From NCBI GenBank assembly GCA_027486935.1, contig JAIXOF010000101.1:1-40413 (forward strand): 40,413 nt of DNA, given 5' to 3'. Of the stretch, positions 11,402-18,971 are shown piece by piece (positions within the stretch are counted from its first letter, which is position 1; each line of letters begins with the position of its first letter). A program made the position numbers and the translations under genes. The notes under the pieces were generated by a model. The model had not been told where the DNA came from, searched no databases, and saw nothing but the letters and a program-made list of their open reading frames with translations. Origin of the DNA: Cyanobium sp. C1_MAG_00004 (GTDB taxonomy: Bacteria > Cyanobacteriota > Cyanobacteriia > PCC-6307 > Cyanobiaceae).

Positions 11402-11425
11402 TGGCCAGGAGGCCAGGTGTCAGCC
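11396..11425. terminator. Bidirectional hairpin between bioA and the GH24 gene
   Basis: GGCTGA-TGGCC (11396-11406) pairs with GGCCA (11411-11415) and TCAGCC (11420-11425), with a 4-nt loop and a GGTG bulge. The hairpin spans both stop codons of the convergent genes. There is no T-tract, so it may block transcripts only weakly or may protect 3' ends. Confidence 0.4.
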
Positions 11426-12256
11426 CTGAAACAGGCTGACTTCGGCGGCCCGGCGCCGCTCCAGCCCGGCCAAGACCTCGCCGTCATCGCCAAAGCGCCA
11501 GCGGGGCAGTTCCTGGCGGATCACCAGGCCAGGCGGTTCACCGGCCAGCAGACGTTGGCGCAGGGTGGATTGGTTCAGGGCCTGCACCCCCACGTTGTAG
11601 GTGAAACTGACCAGCGCGGCCTGCTGCCGGGGGGAGAAGTCACCGGCCATGGGCAGGGCTTTGAAGACCGCAGGCGCATAGTCACGCAACACCTGATCCC
11701 GCAGCAGTTGATCGGCCTGTTGCGGCGTCACCCGCTCGCCCAGCTTCACGGGCCGGCCGTCGTTGTAGGTGGTGGTGCCCCAGCCGATCGTGACCACCCC
11801 CACCGCATCGACATAGGCCTCTAATTCCAGACCCTCGAATTCTTTGATGATCTCCAGGGCAGGTGCCATCCACGGTTCGTCTTTAATCACCTCCTGGACC
11901 CGTTCGATCGCTTGGCTGGGGAGCCCACCACCGATGGCGGCCACCCCGATCGAGGTGCCCAGCAAGGCTGCGCCGTCGCTGGCCGAAATGGTCAGGGTGC
12001 TGGCCAGGGCGATCAACATGGTCGACACGTCCAGCCGTCCGGCGGCGACGCTGTCCAGTTGCTCATCACTGAGGATGACCGCTTCGCCCAGCAGTTGCCT
12101 GTAGGCCTCGGCAATCTCTGGCTCCAGCTGCTCAGCCCGCCGTTGGTGATCCGCATCAAGCGGGCATGGGTGTCCGCTCTGGCACTGTTGGATCTGTCGG
12201 ATCAGAGCGACAAGCTCAGTGGACAGCTCAGCCGCTGCGCTCGATGTCGGGGCCAT
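11420..12256 (-). CDS. GH24 phage-lysozyme-like protein
   Basis: 278 residues. The C-terminal half (about 128-278) is a lysozyme-like domain of glycoside hydrolase family 24: IIKEFEGLELEAYVD holds the likely catalytic Glu141. GVVTIGWGTT is the typical T-x-G-x-G stretch, and AALVSFTYNVG follows. It would cleave peptidoglycan beta-1,4 bonds. The N-terminal 120 residues are not lysozyme. They contain a Cys-containing segment (QIQQCQSGHPCPL) and a hydrophobic Ala/Gly-rich stretch (80-112) that may anchor or export the enzyme. No phage genes surround it, so a cell-wall role or a domesticated endolysin are both possible. Confidence 0.75.
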   Translation of the reverse strand: MAPTSSAAAELSTELVALIRQIQQCQSGHPCPLDADHQRRAEQLEPEIAEAYRQLLGEAVILSDEQLDSVAAGRLDVSTMLIALASTLTISASDGAALLGTSIGVAAIGGGLPSQAIERVQEVIKDEPWMAPALEIIKEFEGLELEAYVDAVGVVTIGWGTTTYNDGRPVKLGERVTPQQADQLLRDQVLRDYAPAVFKALPMAGDFSPRQQAALVSFTYNVGVQALNQSTLRQRLLAGEPPGLVIRQELPRWRFGDDGEVLAGLERRRAAEVSLFQG

Positions 12257-12308: not shown

Positions 12309-12710
12309 TCAACCCGGCAGGATTACCCGGTTGATCACATGCACCACGCCGTTGTCGCAGGCGATGTCGGCGGTAACAACGGTGGCGTTCTTGACCTCGA
12401 ACGGTTCGCTGCGGCGGATCGGCACCGTGGCCCCTTCCAGGCTCTGCCATTCACTCTGAGCCACGAGCTCGGCCTGCTGGTGGGCCCCGGCGAGCACATG
12501 AAATTTGAGGATGCGGGCCAACTGGGGCGGATTGTCGACCAGGGTCTGCACCGTGCCGGGGGGCAGGGCGGCAAAGGCATCATCGACCGGCGCAAACACG
12601 GTGAACGGGCCGGCGCTTTCGAGCGCGCCGCGCAAGCCGGCGGCGTCGACCGCGGCAAGCAGGGTGTTGAAGCAACCGGCTGAGGCTGCGGTTTCGAGAA
12701 TCGTGGCCAT
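12309..12710 (-). CDS. cupS: CupS, fasciclin-fold subunit of the NDH-1_3 CO2-uptake complex
   Basis: A 133-residue single FAS1 (fasciclin) domain without a signal peptide: it opens ATILETAASAGCFNTLLAAV, then GPFTVFAPVDDAFAALPPG (motif H1-like), and ends NGVVHVINRVILP (H2-like). CupS of the cyanobacterial NDH-1MS complex is known to have a fasciclin-like fold. This gene lies 23 bp after cupA on the same strand, so it is called CupS rather than a generic fasciclin protein. It would bind the cytoplasmic CupA module. It is the gene that marks this cluster as the inducible NDH-1_3 type rather than NDH-1_4. Confidence 0.85.
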   Translation of the reverse strand: MATILETAASAGCFNTLLAAVDAAGLRGALESAGPFTVFAPVDDAFAALPPGTVQTLVDNPPQLARILKFHVLAGAHQQAELVAQSEWQSLEGATVPIRRSEPFEVKNATVVTADIACDNGVVHVINRVILPG

Positions 12711-15538: not shown

Positions 15539-17416
15539 TCAACGGGCCAGTAGCCAGGCGGCCATCACCAACACCCCCAGCACCAGCGACAGGGCGTAGG
15601 CCTGGGAATTGCCGCTTGTGGTGAGGCTCAGCTTGCGGGCGCCGGCCATGGCGGCCTGACCGCTGCCGCTGCTGAAGCCATCCACCAGCTGGGCATCACT
15701 CCAGGCGCTCAGGCGGGCCAGACCCACAACCAGGGCGACGACGGTGCGGTGATAAAAGCTCTCGGTGTGCATGTCCTCGGCCAGCCAGTGCTGGATGCCC
15801 CCCAGACCCGAGGGCAGTTCGGCCAGCGGGTGCGGCCGCAGGTAGAAGAACAGGGAGCTGCCCGCACCCAACAGGGTCGAGACCAGCAACGGCCAGGCGA
15901 GAGGACCCCAGCCGGGCACAGGTGTGAGCTGATAGACGCCGATGTGCACCAGCAACTGGGGGATGTGCAGCACAAAACCCATCAACACCAGGGTGGGCAG
16001 CACCATCAACCACAGCACCTCGGGTGAGCGCACCGTGAACGGTTTGGGCACGCCCCCCCAGATCAGGCCAAACACCCGCATCAGCGAGGCGCTCAGCAGG
16101 GCATTGGTGATCAGCACCAGCGCACCGAGCACCACCGGCAGGCGGCTGGAGGCGGTCAGCTCCAGCAATTCGCGCAGGGCGGCAAACCCGCCAAACGGCG
16201 GCAGGGCCATCAGACCGGCTGCACCGCTGAGAAAGGCCAGTCCCACCAGTGGTCGCCGGCTCCACAGCCCCCCCAGCTGGGTCAGGTCCTGGGTGACATT
16301 GCTGATCACGATGGTGCCGACCGCCATCAGCATCACCGCCATCGGCAGCGGGTAAACCAGCATCAGGTGGTCGGCGACGTTGATGCCGCCCAGTCCGACG
16401 GCCACAAACAACAGGCCCAACCAGCTGCTGACCAGAAAGCTCATCGCCCGTTTGACGTCGATCTGCCCCAGGGCGATCAGGGCTGCCACCAGGGCTGTGG
16501 TGCCGCCCACCACCACCAGCACGGCCTGGGCCAGGGGGCTCAGTTCGATCAGGGGTTCAAGCCGCAGCAGCACCCAGGCGCCGCCGATCACCACCACCGA
16601 ATTGCGCAGAACCGTCGAAGGCAGCGGGCTTTCCATGGCCTCGTCGAGCCACAGGTGAAGGGGGATCTGGGCGCATTTGCCCATGGGACCGGCGATCAGG
16701 GCCAACAGGATCAGCTGAAAGCCAACGGGCAGGGACTGGCCGTTGTTGGCCAGATCAGCAGCCCAGCCCTGCAGGCCATGGAAGTTCCAGGTGCCGGTCA
16801 CCGGCAGCAGGGCGATGACACCGGCCAGCAGCACAATGTCGCCGATCCGCTTGGTCAAAAAGGCGTCGCGGGCCCCTTTGACCACCAGGGGCTGGTTGTA
16901 CCAGGTGCCGACGATCACGTAAGTGCCGATGGTGAGCAGCTCCAGCAGCACATAGCTGAAAAACACCGAATCGGTCAGCACCAGGCCGCACAGGCCCGAC
17001 TCAAAGAAGCTGAGGGCGCCAAAGAACCGCGGCCAGCCCCAGTCCATTTCGAGGTACCCGATCGAAAAGATCTGCACCAGCACGTGCAGGCCGGTGATCA
17101 CCGTCATGGCGATCAGGGCCGGTTCGCTGATCAGACCGTCAAAGCCGACCCGCAGCCCCGCGGTTGACAGCCAGGTCCAGCCAAATGTCGGCGGCGCGTA
17201 GATCGCCGCCGCTCCAGCAGCCGAATTGTTGTGCAGGCTCAGCAGGGCCAGCAGGCTGTGACCGAAGGCCAAGGTCACCATCAAAAGATTGATGTACCCG
17301 CTGGGACGGGGGCCTGTGCGCTTGATCAGACCAGGGGACCACAGCAGGCTGAAGGCTGCACCCACCAACGGGTACAGCGGGATCAGCCAGGCAGTCCCTA
17401 TCCAGGACAGGGTCAT
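15539..17416 (-). CDS. ndhF3: NAD(P)H-quinone oxidoreductase subunit F3
   Basis: Distal proton-pumping membrane subunit (NuoL/MrpA-like) of NDH-1_3. 625 residues, strongly hydrophobic. It opens with LIPLYPLVGAAFSLLW. Typical blocks are SYVLLELLTIGTYVIVGTWY, DAFLTKRIGDIVLLAGV and GPMGKCAQIPLHLWLDEAME, the last holding the conserved Lys and His of the quinone/proton channel. The C-terminus runs AEDMHTESFYHRTVV into a final helix. First gene of the ndhF3-ndhD3-cupA-cupS operon; in other cyanobacteria this operon is induced by low inorganic carbon through the LysR regulator CcmR/NdhR. It starts at ATG 17416. Confidence 0.88.
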   Translation of the reverse strand: MTLSWIGTAWLIPLYPLVGAAFSLLWSPGLIKRTGPRPSGYINLLMVTLAFGHSLLALLSLHNNSAAGAAAIYAPPTFGWTWLSTAGLRVGFDGLISEPALIAMTVITGLHVLVQIFSIGYLEMDWGWPRFFGALSFFESGLCGLVLTDSVFFSYVLLELLTIGTYVIVGTWYNQPLVVKGARDAFLTKRIGDIVLLAGVIALLPVTGTWNFHGLQGWAADLANNGQSLPVGFQLILLALIAGPMGKCAQIPLHLWLDEAMESPLPSTVLRNSVVVIGGAWVLLRLEPLIELSPLAQAVLVVVGGTTALVAALIALGQIDVKRAMSFLVSSWLGLLFVAVGLGGINVADHLMLVYPLPMAVMLMAVGTIVISNVTQDLTQLGGLWSRRPLVGLAFLSGAAGLMALPPFGGFAALRELLELTASSRLPVVLGALVLITNALLSASLMRVFGLIWGGVPKPFTVRSPEVLWLMVLPTLVLMGFVLHIPQLLVHIGVYQLTPVPGWGPLAWPLLVSTLLGAGSSLFFYLRPHPLAELPSGLGGIQHWLAEDMHTESFYHRTVVALVVGLARLSAWSDAQLVDGFSSGSGQAAMAGARKLSLTTSGNSQAYALSLVLGVLVMAAWLLAR

Positions 17417-17620
17417 GGAGCCACGGCACGGGCGAAGTCAGGGGAATGTAGAAATCCCAGATCGGCCTTGGGGCTTGCATTCGAGAGTCTTTTCCTATCT
17501 CCCGCCCAAGTGATTCTTATCGACAGCAAAGAGCCCCACAGCCTGCTGGCCATGGGGCTTGATGGATCGTCCACAGGTGTGGGCTTTGAGCGCAATAGCC
17601 CAGTGACTCAGGCAGCTGTC
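17417..17620. promoter_or_regulatory. Upstream region of the ndhF3 operon
   Basis: 204 bp between the ndhF3 start and the 3' end of the next minus-strand gene. On the minus strand a -10-like TACATT lies near 17440-17445, inside an imperfect dyad GGGA-N9-TCCC (about 17438-17454). No confident LysR (CcmR) site can be defined by eye. The distal part contains a hairpin listed separately. Confidence 0.3.
17532..17559 (-). terminator. Hairpin downstream of the 140-residue hypothetical gene
   Basis: AGCCCCA (17532-17538) and TGGGGCT (17553-17559) pair perfectly. A nested CAGC/GCTG stem lies in the loop. Read on the minus strand the stem is followed by CTTTGC, a weak T-rich tail, 60 bp after the stop of the gene at 17621. 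It would separate that gene from the ndhF3 operon. Confidence 0.45.
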
Positions 17621-18043
17621 TCAGCCGAAGCGACGGCGACCATCGTTGAATCCGCTGAAGCCACCGCCCTCGCTGCCGCTGCTCTGGCTCAGCTTCCAGA
17701 CGTTGCGGCTGACGCGCCGGGCTTTGAGGCCACCCCGCTCGACCACGGCGGCCCCGGGACGGGCACCCATCAGATAGGTGACCTCAGCGGTGCTCAGCGG
17801 TGCTCCGGTTTTGAGGGCGAGGTCGGTGAGCTCGAGCCGGTTGCGCAGGGCGCCGGGATCGCAGGCACCAGCGTCTTCTCCCTCGGTCCAGACCCAGGGC
17901 AGCTCGCCATTGGCGGCCATCTTTTGCAGCAGACCCATGCCCACCAACGCCAGGGCCTGTTCGGGGCGCACCTCGTCTGTTTCCGGTTGAACCGGGACCG
18001 AGCTGTTGGCGGTGCCGTTGGACACAGGGCGCTTGGCAGCCAT
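17621..18043 (-). CDS. Uncharacterised protein next to csoS1D, possible helix-turn-helix C-terminus
   Basis: 140 residues; I do not recognise a named family. The first 25 residues are polar and probably disordered. Residues 28-45 ([20 protein letters not shown]) look helical, and a Pro/Trp-rich turn follows. Residues 68-115 contain [28 protein letters not shown], then [17 protein letters not shown]. This resembles helix-turn-basic helix, as in small DNA-binding domains; the tail is Gly/Ser/Arg-rich. Its start overlaps the longest possible csoS1D frame on the other strand, so the two genes are divergent neighbours. As I recall, small conserved proteins occur here in other alpha-cyanobacterial carboxysome regions. 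A regulatory or carboxysome-associated role is inference only. Confidence 0.6.
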
Positions 18044-18206
18044 GGCGTTGAAAATGGGGATGGGCGGAAGCTACCGGCTGTGGACCGGGACGCAAGGGCA
18101 GGGCCGTAGAGTCAGCCGGCTTCTGCGGCCGGTGAGCGCAGATCCAACCACCCCAGGAGCTGCCGAGTCCTTGGCCGAGTCCAACCCCAGGAGACGTGCG
18201 AGGTCG

Positions 18207-18971
18207 GTGCAGGTCACCGGCACCGACCTGGGTCTGGGCATTGCAAGGGCAGCGGGCGTCGACCCGTTGCATCCGTCGGCTGCCAGCTGCGTGATCACCA
18301 CCGACAGCGAGACCTCGCGCTTGGCGCGCGAGTCGAGTCATGTCGAGTCGATCGAGCTGCGCACCTACGTGTTTCTGGACAGCCTGCAGCCCCAGCTGGC
18401 CGCCTACATGGGCACGGTCAGCCAGGGCTTTCTGCCGATCCCTGGTGATGCCTGCCTCTGGCTCGAGGTCTCGCCCGGTATGGCTGTGCACCGGGTCACC
18501 GACATCGCCCTCAAGGCCAGCACCGTTCGCCTCGGTCAGATGATCGTCGAGCGGGCCTTTGGCTCCCTGGCGCTGTACCACCGGGACCAGAGCAACGTGC
18601 TCCACTCGGGCGACGTGGTGCTCGAGGCGATCGGCAGCAGCGTCAACCACCGCAGCCGCTGTGAGGTCAGCTGGACTGAGATCATCCGCGCGATCACACC
18701 CGACCACGCGGTGCTGATCAATCGCCAGAACCGCCGCGGATCGATGATTCAGGCGGGCATGAGCATGTTCATTCTCGAAACCGAGCCCGCGGGTTACGTG
18801 CTGATCGCCGCCAACGAGGCCGAAAAGGCCTCGAACATCACTGTGGTCGATGTCAAGGCGGTGGGCGCCTTCGGCCGTCTGACCCTGGCCGGCCGCGAAG
18901 GCGATGTCGAAGAAGCTGCCGCCGCCGCCATGCGGGCCATCAACCAGGTCAACCGCTCAGCCAAGGGCTGA
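18207..18971 (+). CDS. csoS1D: Carboxysome shell protein CsoS1D (tandem-BMC trimer)
   Basis: A tandem BMC-domain shell protein that forms trimers, stacks in pairs, and is thought to gate passage of larger metabolites such as RuBP. The first domain opens [20 protein letters not shown]; the ER pair of the gated pore is at E115-R116 in MIVERAFG. The second domain ([20 protein letters not shown]) ends [15 protein letters not shown]. The frame stays open to ATG 18006, but that extension overlaps the divergent gene and is unlike the family. GTG 18207 gives 254 residues, near the roughly 256 expected, with AGGAG 12 nt upstream. GTG 18132 is an alternative. The 3' end overlaps the convergent rdgB by 15 bp. 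Confidence 0.9.

Follow-up and report, generated by a model that had tools for sequence, protein, structure and literature searches.

The 40,413-nt window analysed here, which is the whole of contig C205 of its own genome (G000), raises the question of what is encoded by orfX, a small open reading frame lying between a CO2-uptake operon and the divergent shell-protein gene csoS1D (Table 1). The first-pass annotation had placed it between ndhF3 and csoS1D with a hairpin terminator of its own, and had regarded it as the best candidate in the window for a CCM regulator or a carboxysome-associated factor. The gene order was borne out by Pfam domains on the flanking ORFs, and the terminator was also found, as a hairpin 3' of the orfX stop, so that a transcript shared with ndhF3 is not required. 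A cupS-like fasciclin gene, chpX, ndhD3, ndhF3 and orfX follow one another on the minus strand; beyond orfX come csoS1D (+), ham1 (-) and, on the plus strand, sbtA, a P-II gene, csoS1 and the cso operon (from Pfam, with rbcL taken from the ORF list). Past the BMC domain of csoS1D, the Pfam domains Ham1, Sbt_1, P-II, BMC, CsoS2_M and CsoSCA were detected in this order. The fasciclin-domain gene after chpX (12312-12710, minus strand) probably corresponds to cupS, which belongs to the NDH-1MS system of CO2 uptake. A gene with a phage-lysozyme domain in Pfam (11423-12256, minus strand) lies beside the CO2-uptake operon.

Table 1. Coordinates of orfX, its parts and its neighbours in the window.
Feature	Position	Strand	Description	Evidence
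orfX	17621..18043	-	small protein of 140 aa; one helix in its acidic N-terminal part, then a basic winged domain and a short tail at the C-terminus	ORF, orthologues, dN/dS
N-terminal helix	17912..17965	-	predicted, residues 27-44	AF2 (block pLDDT 51-66); conserved in orthologues
Winged-helix-like domain	17684..17857	-	residues 63-120, modelled as two helices and three strands; recognition helix absent	AF2 and structure comparison
C-terminal peptide	17624..17641	-	conserved GRRRFG, residues 135-140	orthologue alignment
Promoter-like element	18067..18096	-	30 bp, upstream of orfX	
Terminator-like hairpin	17532..17559	-	intrinsic, after orfX: 12-bp stem, 4-nt loop, T-poor tail	
csoS1D	18171..18971	+	divergent shell-protein gene, TTG start inferred	PF00936 (BMC) on ORF 18120-18968(+)
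ndhF3	15539..17416	-	next gene downstream of orfX	Pfam Proton_antipo on ORF 15542-17416(-)

We found that orfX is a genuine gene, beyond chance. Its dN/dS values of about 0.03-0.2 in 10 pairwise comparisons, five of which include the window gene, indicate strong purifying selection, and a profile search detected orthologues in 187 of 200 family genomes with a completeness of at least 95%. The start codon in the ORF list, an ATG at 18043 on the minus strand, is supported because relatives share the first residues M/V-A-A/V-K-R. Twenty orfX-bearing loci came from a single scan of the collected genomes. Among 60 relatives, matches were obtained in 28, all of the same family (28 of the 37 family genomes sampled, that of the window included), and in none of the 23 genomes of other families in this set. 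In a sample of 292 genomes from the phylum, there were 36 matches inside the family and two weak ones outside it, and no relatives were found among viral contigs. One contig of 36,860 bases (G006:C17) carries identical, mirrored orfX copies (L041 and L049), probably as a palindromic assembly artefact. As judged from these searches, orfX appears to be present once per genome in nearly all alpha-cyanobacteria of oceans and lakes, as part of their carboxysome locus, and to be specific to this group.

All seven genomes sampled from genus g9, and also the single-contig genome G028, are among the 13 of 200 that gave no match. Nine family genomes of the 60-genome set had no orfX match; among them, csoS1D was detected in G002, G013, G021, G028 and G030 but not in the remaining four, whose completeness is 64-72%. 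As the csoS1D match stops at a contig end in G002 and G021, these two genomes are uninformative about the absence of orfX. In G028, csoS1D is directly followed by ORFs that look, by eye, like chlN and chlB, and orfX is missing; thus, orfX can be lost. The cso locus of G013 (L090, genus g9) is rearranged, with csoS1D immediately before csoS1/rbcL and with no orfX, ham1 or sbtA seen there.

The place of orfX at the carboxysome locus, on which the first-pass annotation had staked its proposal, is conserved in close relatives. We found csoS1D at 48 of the first 49 orfX loci, and it lay upstream of and divergent from orfX in 93 of 96 fetched loci, a set that contains repeats of the same gene. Two of the three exceptions represent one gene with csoS1D 1,455 bp away (L072), and the third is a short flank. 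Downstream of orfX and on its strand, chlN was found in 42 loci and ndhF3 in 22; the other 32 loci showed neither gene within the fetched flanks, some of which are short. Since these downstream genes vary and csoS1D stays, csoS1D is the constant neighbour of orfX.

Searches of Pfam, NCBIfam, PHROG and PDB sequences gave no useful match for orfX, and even with E values of up to 10 allowed, no HTH, MerR or LysR model of Pfam matched the protein of the window; DARPins and importin, the top PDB sequence rows, were dismissed as chance matches. HTH_IclR of Pfam gave sub-cut-off matches in 11 of 32 orthologues (best E 0.036) and scored 13.5 bits with the isolated domain, the cut-off being 22. In the AlphaFold model of the full protein, helices at residues 63-79 and 85-92 are followed by strands at 100-103, 106-112 and 115-120, with pLDDT of about 83-90 over residues 71-120, and the domain modelled alone showed the same elements with pLDDT 88 and pTM 0.69. 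The C-terminal half had been read as a helix-turn-basic helix followed by an Arg-rich tail. The tail is real and conserved across orthologues, and the HTH-like character and the helix-turn stood; however, both models place coil at residues 93-99 and strand at 100-103, where a recognition helix would be expected, and therefore the claimed basic helix is predicted to be the wing, a beta-hairpin.

Foldseek returned no significant match with either the whole protein or the isolated domain (E above 0.5). A confident hit to some unrelated fold, which would have spoken against the annotation, was thus not obtained. The structure comparison listed 29 rows with Z of at least 2 (maximum 3.9), 26 of which are winged-helix proteins by their names; the top rows are MAGE and ScpB, both protein-binding winged helices. 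In 44 orthologues, an acidic N-terminal part with a mean charge of -3.3 precedes the basic residues 62-120, whose net charge averages +5.0, ranges from +3 to +8 and is positive in all 44. The residues invariant across 32 diverse orthologues include R103, G105, A108, R113, N114 and W116, with R113-N114 at the tip of the predicted wing hairpin.

Starting from the two weak matches outside the family, we arrived at proteins of about 180 aa in other cyanobacterial families, present in 28 of the 292 genomes. Pfam detected an N-terminal MerR_1 domain above the cut-off in one of two such relatives scanned, and no MerR head in orfX orthologues. The C-terminal domains of orfX and of these relatives aligned with an hhalign probability of 87.8 over 53 columns; with an HMM of the orfX domain, 21 of 25 relatives outscored the best of 1000 shuffled sequences, and the C-terminal domains of some relatives matched HTH_17, MerR or HTH_29 weakly, under the cut-off. 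These unnamed proteins (e.g., L071:4464-5009, 182 aa) share with orfX the C-terminal pattern L-S-T/S-x-E-V...L-x-G-x-K/R-P...R-G-G...W-K-V/L; they carry an N-terminal MerR_1 HTH and can be multicopy, whereas orfX is headless and located at csoS1D. In our reading, orfX putatively corresponds to the C-terminal portion of an HTH-type family and has no MerR head, and this relationship, together with the fold model, supports the assignment of its C-terminal half as a predicted HTH-derived winged domain. The MerR-headed family (L093-L122, in other cyanobacterial families) reaches five matches in one genome (G194), and several members lie near recombinase-, relaxase-, HNH- or transposase-like ORFs, as judged by eye. 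One member, L116:1057-2034, adjoins a small P-II/SbtB-like gene (by eye), possibly a second link to carbon regulation.

Upstream of orfX, members of the family share a directional element, CTTGC-N12-AGCCGRTAMCKTC. The copy in the window, CTTGC-N12-AGCCGGTAGCTTC, is one letter off this pattern and contains a possible -35 (CTTGCG) and -10 (TAGCTT). A loose pattern occurred in 65 of 75 distinct orfX upstream regions, as compared with a mean of 0.15 and a maximum of 1 in shuffles, and most of the remaining regions carry a variant by eye, uncounted. We found the exact 30-bp pattern in 70 of 150 family genomes, always at a single site with no second one, and the reversed control pattern in 10 genomes; the 80 genomes without an exact match include that of the window. 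All 62 checkable sites were located 21-176 bp upstream of orfX on the same strand, and eight were uncheckable. A regulon sharing the motif was rejected on the basis of these numbers. A first motif pattern, with the wrong spacing, gave no sites in 12 genomes, and a looser version of it gave scattered matches. The element looks like a -35/-10 promoter dedicated to orfX. It is asymmetric and remains with orfX where csoS1D is 1.4 kb distant, and therefore lends no support to control of csoS1D. Of the proposed CCM regulator, an HTH-derived winged domain is supported by the fold model and the MerR-headed relatives; of the suggested control of csoS1A, sbtA or ndhF3 there was no sign, as the sole conserved element found is the promoter-like element of orfX itself and the recognition helix is missing from the model.

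The C-terminal tail is likewise conserved, with an aromatic residue among the last five in 101 of 103 distinct orthologue C-termini. These fall into FRRRL (46), WRN-like (26) and RRRF-like or other (31) types, within each of which the last residues are near invariant, and linker plus tail vary in length from 12 to 33 aa. Trp occurs in 73% of the 26 WRN-type tails, in which W or Y stands third from the end.

The explanation that we prefer, with a probability of roughly one in three, is that the winged-helix protein is a nucleic-acid-binding, local regulator of the csoS1D-orfX divergent region. Its basic wing, with R113-N114 at the tip, would bind nucleic acid, its own gene would probably be under its control too, and the conserved C-terminal peptide would contact a protein partner. 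The csoS1D linkage, the occurrence in 187 of 200 family genomes, the low dN/dS, the pLDDT of 88, the winged-helix rows, the MerR-headed relatives, the basic charge and the promoter-like element all argue for this explanation. Against it stand the weak structure scores, the missing recognition helix, the absence of the MerR head, which is the expected DNA-binding part of the relatives, and the promoter-like element, which neither supports control of csoS1D nor has a second site; in addition, the cyanobacterial carboxysome is called presumably constitutive in the portion of PMC4207490 available. In a different role, orfX would serve the neighbouring chlorophyll operon (por-chlL-chlB-chlN) or the NDH-1MS operon and not the carboxysome. 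The same-strand chlN and ndhF3 genes downstream would fit this role, but neither of them is constant, orfX is set apart from ndhF3 by a terminator in the window, and the chlorophyll partnership is weakened because chlN is adjacent in only 42 of 96 loci; we regard this role as very improbable.

The domain may also be a degenerate winged helix that serves protein contacts only, such as those needed to assemble the shell or Rubisco, and does not contact nucleic acid. MAGE, ScpB and ESCRT-II are winged helices that mediate protein contacts, and both the missing recognition helix and the best structure rows agree with such a module; we nevertheless consider it unlikely, with the domain consistently basic and R113-N114 invariant at the wing tip. 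Somewhat less doubtful, though still tentative, is a carboxysome adaptor or tether, in which the basic domain would sit on the nucleoid or a protein and the aromatic/Arg tail on the carboxysome, providing ParA-free positioning with an McdB-like function but without homology. The shell-gene linkage, which persists while other neighbours change, and the near-invariant, aromatic-bearing ends after a linker of varying length favour this possibility. So does the McdB literature, as far as the available portions of the papers go: McdB requires its C-terminal Trp, for which Tyr or Phe partly substitutes, to bind carboxysomes, a Tyr or Phe occurs among the final five residues of McdB-like proteins of other BMCs (PMC11321042), and alpha-cyanobacteria are described as being without McdAB (PMC12918739), with their carboxysome positioning stated as an open question (PMC13052382). 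On the other side, the tail varies by clade, Trp is incompletely kept even in the WRN type, no McdA is nearby, and of the 13 genomes without orfX, three that were checked retain csoS1D. We prefer the local regulator because of the HTH ancestry and the divergent position, and the tether stays a close second because of the missing recognition helix, the one site per genome and the tail. That orfX is the missing positioning factor of alpha-cyanobacterial carboxysomes, a one-protein nucleoid tether replacing McdAB in Prochlorococcus-type and related picocyanobacteria, seems to us a long shot; if the tether reading were true, one protein would stand in for a two-protein system. The gene is a concrete candidate for carboxysome positioning or cso regulation in alpha-cyanobacteria.

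A literature search did not find a description of orfX, and subscription papers were mostly outside its scope, so that absence from print is unproven; for the locus tags PMM0546-0548, no paper was found. The gene is unmentioned in the available portions of PMC12918739, PMC8262871, PMC4499774, PMC4207490, PMC11321042, PMC13052382 and PMC13249358, including the Pfam-based survey of cso loci among them (PMC4207490). It was seemingly passed over because no Pfam model matches it.

In comparison with known systems, the predicted helix-helix-wing topology is weakly similar to that of the winged-helix DNA-binding proteins IclR, ArsR/SmtB, Rok and Fur (Z 2.0-2.6 over 49-57 residues), whereas the orfX model lacks their recognition helix and no family match exceeded the cut-off. 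CbbR, the LysR regulator of proteobacterial cso loci, is likewise divergent from a carboxysome gene, and alpha-cyanobacterial cso loci are without CbbR, according to the available part of PMC4207490; in contrast to CbbR, orfX has no LysR HTH or effector domain by Pfam, is only 140 aa long, and faces csoS1D, not cbbL. Like McdB, the orfX product is small, is encoded at a carboxysome locus and has an aromatic residue near its C-terminus. The Trp of McdB is third from the end in Halothiobacillus (available part of PMC11321042), whereas the window protein ends in RRRFG, lacking both this invariant Trp and the R(V/I)WPD end, and has a predicted folded winged domain. In agreement with the first-pass annotation, no McdA-type partner was seen in the window, as AAA_31/ParA matches numbered zero on contig C205 and five elsewhere in the genome. 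The resemblance between the tails of orfX and McdB is one of layout, not of homology.
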